Below are positions 9,838-23,670 of a stretch of 45,286 nt of DNA, in pieces. The notes beneath the pieces were generated by a model that was given only the letters and a program-made list of their open reading frames with translations, made no database searches and had not been told where the DNA came from. A program made the translations under genes and the position numbers. Every line of letters starts with the position of its first letter. Positions within the stretch are counted from its first letter, which is position 1. This stretch comes from Pseudomonadota bacterium (GTDB taxonomy: Bacteria; Campylobacterota; Campylobacteria; Campylobacterales; Sulfurospirillaceae). The stretch is taken from contig JAGDMU010000017.1 in assembly GCA_017860615.1 (NCBI GenBank), positions 1-45,286 of the forward strand, written 5' to 3'.

Positions 9838-9847
9838 TTCTGATACG

Positions 9848-9943
9848 CTCTGAGGGCAAAGCCCCCAGAGCTACGCTAACGCTAAGTTTCCTTCGGCAGG
9901 AAGCCCACGCACCTTTGGTGCTTTTACTTCTTGCAAATAAAGA
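9848..9943 (-). repeat. structured intergenic repeat, copy A
   Basis: Read on the minus strand from the eamA stop: TTGCAAGAAG, TAAAAGCACCAAAGGTGC (hairpin GCACC/GGTGC at 9909-9921), a TTCCT/AGGAA hairpin (9887-9903), AGCGTTAGCGTAG, then a terminal hairpin 9848-9857 with 9861-9870 (10 bp, one mismatch) closing on GCTTTGC. Copies B (20791-20881) and C (23577-23670) share the layout with different arm sequences. On the plus strand the GCACC/GGTGC hairpin is followed by TTTT and could also terminate lutC transcription. Confidence 0.7.
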
Positions 9944-20790: not shown

Positions 20791-20881
20791 GCAAGCGCTT
20801 GTAAAAACACCAAAGGTGCGCGAGTACTCTGCTGATGAGAACCCAGTGTTAACATAGTCTTTAAAGCTTTGCTTTAAAGAC
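20791..20881 (+). repeat. structured intergenic repeat, copy B
   Basis: Directly after the cupin stop: GCAAGCGCTTG, TAAAAACACCAAAGGTGCG (hairpin about 20808-20818), a weaker middle segment, AGTGTTAACATAG, then a perfect 11-bp terminal hairpin GTCTTTAAAGC/GCTTTAAAGAC (20857-20867 with 20871-20881) closing on GCTTTGC. It aligns with copies A and C in the same order, but its terminal arms differ completely while staying complementary. Confidence 0.7.
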
Positions 20882-20922
20882 GTGTCAGGATCTTACAAGA
20901 ACTCCAATCATAAAAAGGCTTT

Positions 20923-23549: not shown

Positions 23550-23567
23550 AGAGTTCCGTAGAACTCT
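23550..23567 (+). terminator. small hairpin upstream of cheB
   Basis: AGAGTTC (23550-23556) and GAACTCT (23561-23567) form a perfect 7-bp stem with loop CGTA between repeat copy C and cheB. The role is unclear; it could be a leader hairpin of the cheB-cheR transcript. Confidence 0.45.
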
Positions 23568-23576
23568 TATGATAAC

Positions 23577-23670
23577 GGTTTATGAGCAAAGCCCATAAAC
23601 CTACGTAAGCGCTAGGTTACTTAAGCTTACCTCTTTTGAGGTAGAATCTTCTTGCAAAAGCAAGAAGATT
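23577..23670 (-). repeat. structured intergenic repeat, copy C, with terminator-like hairpin
   Basis: Read on the minus strand from the pepA stop: a perfect 11-bp hairpin AATCTTCTTGC/GCAAGAAGATT (23645-23670), which overlaps the pepA stop; an ACCTC/GAGGT hairpin (23629-23642); AGCGCTTACGTAG; and a terminal hairpin GGTTTATGGGC/GCTCATAAACC (23577-23587 with 23591-23601) closing on GCTTTGC. It aligns with copies A and B. It separates pepA from cheB-cheR and probably ends the long folD-to-pepA transcript. Confidence 0.7.

Follow-up and report, generated by a model that had tools for sequence, protein, structure and literature searches.

A pseudoknotted GTAG-hairpin element dispersed through the genomes of Campylobacterota

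An initial annotation of the window, i.e. the whole stretch of 45,286 nt of DNA that was analysed, described three copies of a dispersed intergenic element with a covarying terminal hairpin. That observation is real but understated: the family is far larger than three copies, and the copies belong to an element of ~80-90 nt that has no protein of its own and the fold of which is under selection. We propose that this GTAG-hairpin element is probably, though by no means certainly, a non-autonomous REP-like mobile family of Campylobacterota, i.e. pseudoknotted GTAG REPs that are mobilised in trans in a folded, single-stranded form.

Anatomy, copy number and host range

Comparison of copies across families revealed two types, A and B, that occur together and share the common core PK2-GTAG-H3-CGT, in which PK2 is a small H-type pseudoknot. 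H3 has a stem of 10-11 bp with the loop TTT and the apex GCTTTGC, and GTAG is the consensus tag in the genome from which the window comes (G000, the own genome) as well as in other genomes. From 5' to 3', type A consists of H1 (e.g. GCACC-AAA-GGTGC), PK1, PK2, GTAG, H3 (eight free base pairs plus GC-TTT-GC) and CGT. Its PK1 reads X3, one nucleotide, four bases, X3', GA and four bases, with X3 pairing with X3' and the four-base runs pairing with each other, and its PK2 reads X3, NNA, GY, X3', A and RC. Type B has a different H1 (TGCC...GGC) that is followed by AAGCTTTAG, PK2, GTAG, H3 and CGT. One type B copy, L065 (G000:C21:51463-51541), has an extra small palindrome, CAAGGAAACTTTG, inside the stem of the terminal hairpin.

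The three window copies are present and, in agreement with the initial annotation, have their parts in the same order when c1 and c3 are taken from the minus strand and c2 from the plus strand. c1 and c2 are type A and c3 is a degenerate type B in which PK2 pairing has been lost; of the three, c1 is thus nearly perfect, while c2 and c3 have decayed. Their parts are as follows.

9839..9922, minus strand: c1, type A, whole conserved unit (covariance-model match G000:C17:9839-9899:-, 63 bits, E 2.8e-15, extended upstream over the 5' hairpin)
9909..9921, minus strand: c1 5' hairpin H1, GCACC AAA GGTGC (fold; H1 arms co-change across genera)
9889..9905, minus strand: c1 PK1, GGC t TCCT GCC ga AGGA, with GGC:GCC and TCCT:AGGA (A5 helices 1 and 2, 100% and 97.9% of cells paired)
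9875..9888, minus strand: c1 PK2, AAC tta GC GTT a GC, with AAC:GTT and GC:GC (A5 helices 3 and 4, 100% paired, compensatory types)
9871..9874, minus strand: c1 GTAG tag (columns 59-62 of A5, invariant in this GTAG-selected set)
9847..9871, minus strand: c1 terminal hairpin H3, 11 bp, apex GCTTTGC, then CGT (A5 helix 5, 9 of 11 pairs changed on both sides)
20807..20889, plus strand: c2, type A, whole conserved unit (covariance-model match 20829-20889:+, 63.7 bits)
20807..20819, plus strand: c2 5' hairpin H1, with CACC AAA GGTG inside (fold)
20823..20839, plus strand: c2 PK1, slightly degenerate, AGT/GCT and one mismatch in the second helix (sequence read against the A5 structure)
20840..20853, plus strand: c2 PK2, AAC cca GT GTT a AC, in which T-A replaces C-G (sequence; Y/R covariation)
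20854..20857, plus strand: c2 tag, ATAG rather than GTAG (sequence)
20857..20881, plus strand: c2 terminal hairpin H3 (fold, covariation)
23569..23642, minus strand: c3, a degenerate type B unit without PK2 pairing (covariance-model match 23569-23628:-, 59.9 bits)
23629..23642, minus strand: c3 type B 5' hairpin H1, ACCTC aaaa GAGGT (fold)
23601..23604, minus strand: c3 GTAG tag (sequence)
23577..23601, minus strand: c3 terminal hairpin H3 (fold; type B covariation)
23551..23566, minus strand: c3 outer 3' palindrome H4, GAGTTC-GAACTC (Sulfurospirillum-specific extension)
23648..23667, minus strand: c3 outer 5' palindrome H0, CTTCTTGC-GCAAGAAG (palindrome count)

The arms of the terminal hairpin differ among the three copies, yet in the fold they are complementary within every copy, as had been described. 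By contrast, what had been called a variable middle is not unstructured: a conserved pseudoknot, or two in type A, lies directly 5' of GTAG. The GCAAG-type end that had been listed as a part was seen as an outer hairpin but is missing from most copies (present in 6 of 54). The H0 palindrome is found in 6 of the 54 own copies; the flanking DNA (147 kb) contains it another six times, and it is probably accessory to the element. An H4-like palindrome (AGTTC-GAACT) follows 16 of the 54 own copies, compared with three occurrences in the 147 kb of flanking DNA, and extends the element at its 3' end in this lineage specifically.

The pattern GCGTAG-N(8-14)-GCTTTGC had 15 matches in the 2.79 Mb genome while the reversed pattern had none, and a covariance model (R1) made from 20 copies, a type of search that the initial annotation had proposed, returned 54 copies at E < 1e-3 in the own genome. 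Thus, the window copies are not the result of chance. Based on heuristic ORF calls, the own copies are intergenic (no overlap with an ORF exceeds 30 nt), and based on heuristic gene calls, 19 lie between tandem genes in sense, 12 between tandem genes in antisense, 14 between convergent genes and 8 between divergent genes. Many copies of the element lie just after stop codons.

Within the genus, each of the 24 genomes searched contained the element; in the order as a whole, 134 of 399 genomes, representing 25 of 87 genera, had it. Full counts were 58 in G128, 63 in G020 and 15-70 in each of seven genomes from other families. A pattern scan across genomes gave at least 80 loci, and every match listed contains a match to the model; the 80 matches listed are all labelled as Campylobacterota or epsilonproteobacterial, i.e. 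Sulfurospirillum, Sulfurovum, Sulfurimonas, Sulfuricurvum, Hydrogenimonas and relatives. These hosts are sulfur- and hydrogen-metabolising Campylobacterota. No Rfam family scored above its gathering threshold for the element, and no match was found in plasmids or in sequenced phages, for each of which one consensus was tried. A copy is present in the phage-like viral contig IMGVR_UViG_3300032212_000702 (L304:5681-5741), between the genes for a head maturation protease and a portal protein, and such a contig is a possible vehicle for transfer of the element.

Covariation and the folded strand

In the 20 model copies, 93.6% of the H3 cells were paired compared with 69.3% after shuffling, and 55 cells were double changes compared with 16.6. 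For larger sets, units were collected using a regular expression in which GTAG, the apex and some spacer positions are set while the bases that pair are left free; because the sets A5 and A6 were chosen with GTAG required, the invariance of the tag in them is selected. Among 36 non-redundant type A units in a gapless alignment, 98.2% of 828 cells were paired, compared with 78.8% after shuffling and at most 41.9% for any slide. Moreover, double changes were observed in 17 of 23 pairs, amounting to 186 double-change cells compared with 54.6 after shuffling, and the covariation was 0.622 compared with 0.224. Similarly, in the 26 type B units, 97.6% of cells were paired compared with 75.1% after shuffling, with 102 double-change cells compared with 32.0 and a covariation of 0.671 compared with 0.225. 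The structure was derived on copies of the same family, which flatters the percentages paired; shuffled controls leave relatedness in, and slid controls retain it and yet fall far below the observed values.

The short helices of the pseudoknots vary in the same manner. In type A, the PK1 variants were GGC/GCC (54), AGC/GCT (41), AAC/GTT (2) and GAC/GTC (1), and the PK2 variants were AAC/GTT (92), GAC/GTC (2), and AGC/GCT, ACC/GGT, ATC/GAT and GTC/GAC (1 each), with 298 of 300 type A PK2 cells forming Watson-Crick pairs. In both types, the inner pair of PK2 alternates between C-G and T-A. Several compensatory types in helices of 3 bp are hard to obtain without real pairing. In total, the counts on the 20 copies and on the type A and type B sets bear out the argument for selection on structure made in the initial annotation, and both further copies and covariation beyond the first three were found.

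On the GTAG strand, H3 contained 41 G.T pairs in type A and 24 in type B, compared with 4 and 5 A.C pairs, respectively (65:9 overall). One G.T among the apex-proximal pairs is widely inherited; with these positions set aside, there were 16 G.T versus 4 A.C pairs in type A and 11 versus 1 in type B (27:5 overall). Because G.T outnumber A.C pairs in H3, the GTAG strand is the folded one. This excess tells the strand and does not separate RNA from single-stranded DNA (ssDNA).

Mobility and the search for a mobilising enzyme

Most copies occupy equivalent positions in G128 and G020, which indicates that movement is slow now and counts against the explanation that we favour. Several copies do not, and some of those that differ show filled and empty sites. 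A type B unit is located between the 16S rRNA and tRNA-Ile genes in two rRNA (rrn) operons of G128 and in one of G020, after GAATGAA-GACAAGAAAA. The spacer is without the unit in another operon of each of these two genomes, and also in the operons read of G000, G250, G183, G161, G194, G204, G065, G078, G150 and G139. Since spacers without the unit are found in both G128 and G020 and across the genus, it is the insertion that is derived. This clean insertion shows that the unit is mobile, in line with the small mobile element that the initial annotation had considered. At this one site, there was no clear target duplication and the ends are not inverted; conserved ends or a target duplication were likewise not found for the element, which counts against the explanation that we favour.

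The two G128 copies in rrn spacers (L340 and L341) are paralogues that stem from one insertion, and one of them lacks exactly the GTAG hairpin, apparently as a result of a deletion between short repeats. In these same two spacers, ~130 nt are missing between the tRNA-Ile and tRNA-Ala genes in comparison with the syntenic G020 spacer. Most copies of the element appear to be single or in direct tandem, and a few form head-to-head pairs (e.g. C24:155306/155426). Direct tandem arrays are present in several genomes with periods of ~75 to 125 nt, e.g. ~90 nt in L168:130-549, ~86 nt in L190, ~75 nt in L245 and ~124 nt in L146:5328-5631, and the length of a tandem array differs between G128 and G020. 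TTACATGTAA was considered as a target motif and rejected, as only 3 of its 17 instances lie at most 100 nt upstream of a copy.

The own genome encodes one Y1 (HUH) transposase of ~252 aa (L001:1391-2250; G000:C26 near 72547). The gene is flanked by its own inverted repeats, AGGGGTCAGGGCTAAACTTTTAAC, with GGGGTCAG as terminal repeats, and these are unrelated to the element. In PMC3733652, Y1 transposases with GGGGWSAS terminal repeats are termed TIRYT; the sole Y1 gene of the own genome is of this type and is not an element-flanked RAYT. Moreover, the element was not found within 1.5 kb of Y1 at any of 31 loci in the own family or of 9 loci in seven element-rich genomes from other families, and 43 of the 134 element-bearing genomes, complete ones included, gave no Y1 match. 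Thus, with 0 of 40 Y1 loci carrying the element, GGGGTCAG ends on the own Y1 gene and many hosts without Y1, we rejected a RAYT as the partner, and an arrangement as in a REPtron, i.e. a RAYT flanked by the repeats, was not found at these 40 loci with flanks of 1.5 kb. These Y1 results also count against the explanation that we favour. The presence of Y1 and that of the element are correlated outside the genus with an odds ratio of 2.5 that is not corrected for phylogeny, and this correlation may reflect genome type only. In four genomes, Y1_Tnp domains lie in unusually long frames of 466-485 aa, the architecture of which differs from that of the 250-aa kind (G128:C1:2794026, G331:C144:5898, G295:C254:8562 and G239:C21:8561).

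Among 21 element-rich genomes, none had a TnpB zinc-ribbon over the cut-off and two had a reverse transcriptase; both candidates were rejected as partners because they are nearly absent from these genomes. The own genome has a reverse transcriptase gene (RVT_1) in a frame of 571 aa at G000:C21:20551-21108. Finally, clustering of 553 neighbouring ORFs identified no recurrent transposase or integrase beside the element.

Known systems and competing explanations

In group 3 REPs, exemplified by REP-Sm of Stenotrophomonas with its palindrome of 8 bp, GTAG lies directly 5' of a perfect palindrome with a 3-nt loop, as it does here; these REPs are high-copy and intergenic, as is the element (PMC8266576). 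The stem sequence of group 3 REPs is largely free while GTAG and the loop matter to the group 3 TnpA-REP in vitro (PMC8266576). The same pattern of a free stem with a fixed GTAG and loop is seen in H3, which supports the REP reading; this was among the suggestions of the initial annotation and, together with mobility, fits best, given the GTAG at the foot of the hairpin and the intergenic position of all own copies. By contrast with group 3 REPs, the element has one or two pseudoknots and a 5' hairpin ahead of GTAG, is ~80-90 nt rather than 23 nt long (PMC8266576), and none of the 40 Y1 loci is a RAYT flanked by it.

According to PMC3733652, GTAG-tagged palindromes sort into 24 families and also occur in Sulfurovum sp. 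NBC37-1, and the superfamily shows G.T pairing and a location downstream of genes. The element shares the tag at the foot of the palindrome, a stem of 6-13 bp, a short loop and many extragenic copies with the superfamily, and the Sulfurovum repeats reported there are likely the H3 part of the element. However, that survey describes hairpins of 20-40 bp only, mentions no pseudoknot body in the sections consulted and reports that tandem head-tail pairs are rare, while the element is 80-90 nt with pseudoknots and forms tandem arrays in several genomes. In the literature, we found nothing relevant on the element in Sulfurospirillum or on pseudoknotted REPs, and no description of the pseudoknotted body.

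REPINs and BIMEs are likewise non-autonomous and form within-genome populations of copies; however, they are inverted pairs, while the units of the element are directional and appear to be single, mostly alone or in direct tandem. ERIC/IRU, RUP and BOX are structured intergenic units of ~100 nt without a gene, as is the element. They are not known to have pseudoknots or a GTAG tag, which sets them apart. An integron attC site was rejected on inspection, as the R boxes RYYYAAC/GTTRRRY are not conserved: there is no conservation past CGT on the 3' side, and the sequence on the 5' side is not a match. What is new is the larger, pseudoknotted unit of which the hairpin forms the 3' end; it exists as two types across several families, and no partner enzyme was found for it.

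In the mechanism that we favour, the unit would be recognised as a folded single strand, namely the GTAG strand, and we infer that the mobile form is ssDNA and the mover an HUH enzyme. The 3' module, i.e. GTAG and a perfect hairpin with a 3-nt loop, has the layout that is cut by TnpA-REP (RAYT, HUH-type Y1) in group 3 REPs, and the 5' module, i.e. the covarying pseudoknot, or two in type A, and the 5' hairpin, probably provides a second protein contact or selects the right end. An enzyme supplied in trans would cut the folded unit and rejoin it into intergenic DNA, and arrays would grow by tandem duplication. A farther-reaching proposal, which we put forward tentatively, is that the element represents a new class of selfish nucleic acid of less than 100 nt that is free of protein and spreads by means of its pseudoknotted fold as RNA or ssDNA, with types A and B maintained side by side in several Campylobacterota families and with a mover that is not a RAYT, a reverse transcriptase or TnpB.

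The main rival is that the selected form is RNA, i.e. a dispersed structured RNA, selfish or domesticated, in which the pseudoknot or pseudoknots and the GUAG hairpin are bound by a host protein and spread as DNA may be secondary. Helices of 2-4 bp with loops of 1-3 nt would fit A-form RNA better than DNA, which counts against ssDNA, and such compact H-type pseudoknots match RNA geometry. Moreover, G.U is tolerated on one strand only, the fold is retained across several families of the order, and the copy in the rrn spacer sits in transcribed DNA in sense. However, copies are found in every orientation relative to genes, so that most do not occupy one position in a transcript; there is no conserved U-tract directly 3' of the unit and no Rfam match; and G.T wobble is the mildest mismatch in ssDNA as well. 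On balance, we regard a selected RNA as rather unlikely. The orientations also disfavour the 3'-UTR RNA suggested in the initial annotation. That the copies are common intrinsic terminators or 3'-UTR hairpins that became alike in shape by convergence would agree with the many copies just after stop codons; however, the hairpin is followed by an invariant CGT and no U-tract, copies also lie between divergent genes, and the sequence-conserved pseudoknot modules common to several families already refute convergence, leaving this explanation hardly credible.

Two further origins were weighed against the REP-like family. A MITE of a double-strand DDE transposon, which moves through its terminal inverted repeats and duplicates the target site, would account for discrete insertions and for a small unit without an ORF; it is improbable given that the unit lacks terminal inverted repeats, that the rrn insertion, at its one site, has no target duplication, that the covariation occurs within the unit and that one strand is preferred. 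A remnant of an RNA-guided or reverse-transcribing element, i.e. TnpB/IscB omega-RNA, a retron or part of a group II intron, could explain a pseudoknotted structured unit adjoining variable DNA; this origin is more improbable still, as the search for the TnpB zinc-ribbon was negative in all 21 element-rich genomes, a reverse transcriptase is present in 2 of the 21, and there is neither a recurrent neighbour gene of such a kind nor an Rfam match.

REPs are usually seen as simple palindromes that are cut by a RAYT, while here a REP-type hairpin ends a larger folded unit, the pseudoknot pairing of which is kept by compensation in dozens of copies per genome, in several families and often without any RAYT. 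This raises the questions of what moves REP-like repeats where a RAYT is absent and of which form of such repeats, ssDNA or RNA, is recognised. With the covariance model, the element can be annotated in the many intergenic regions of Campylobacterota that contain it.
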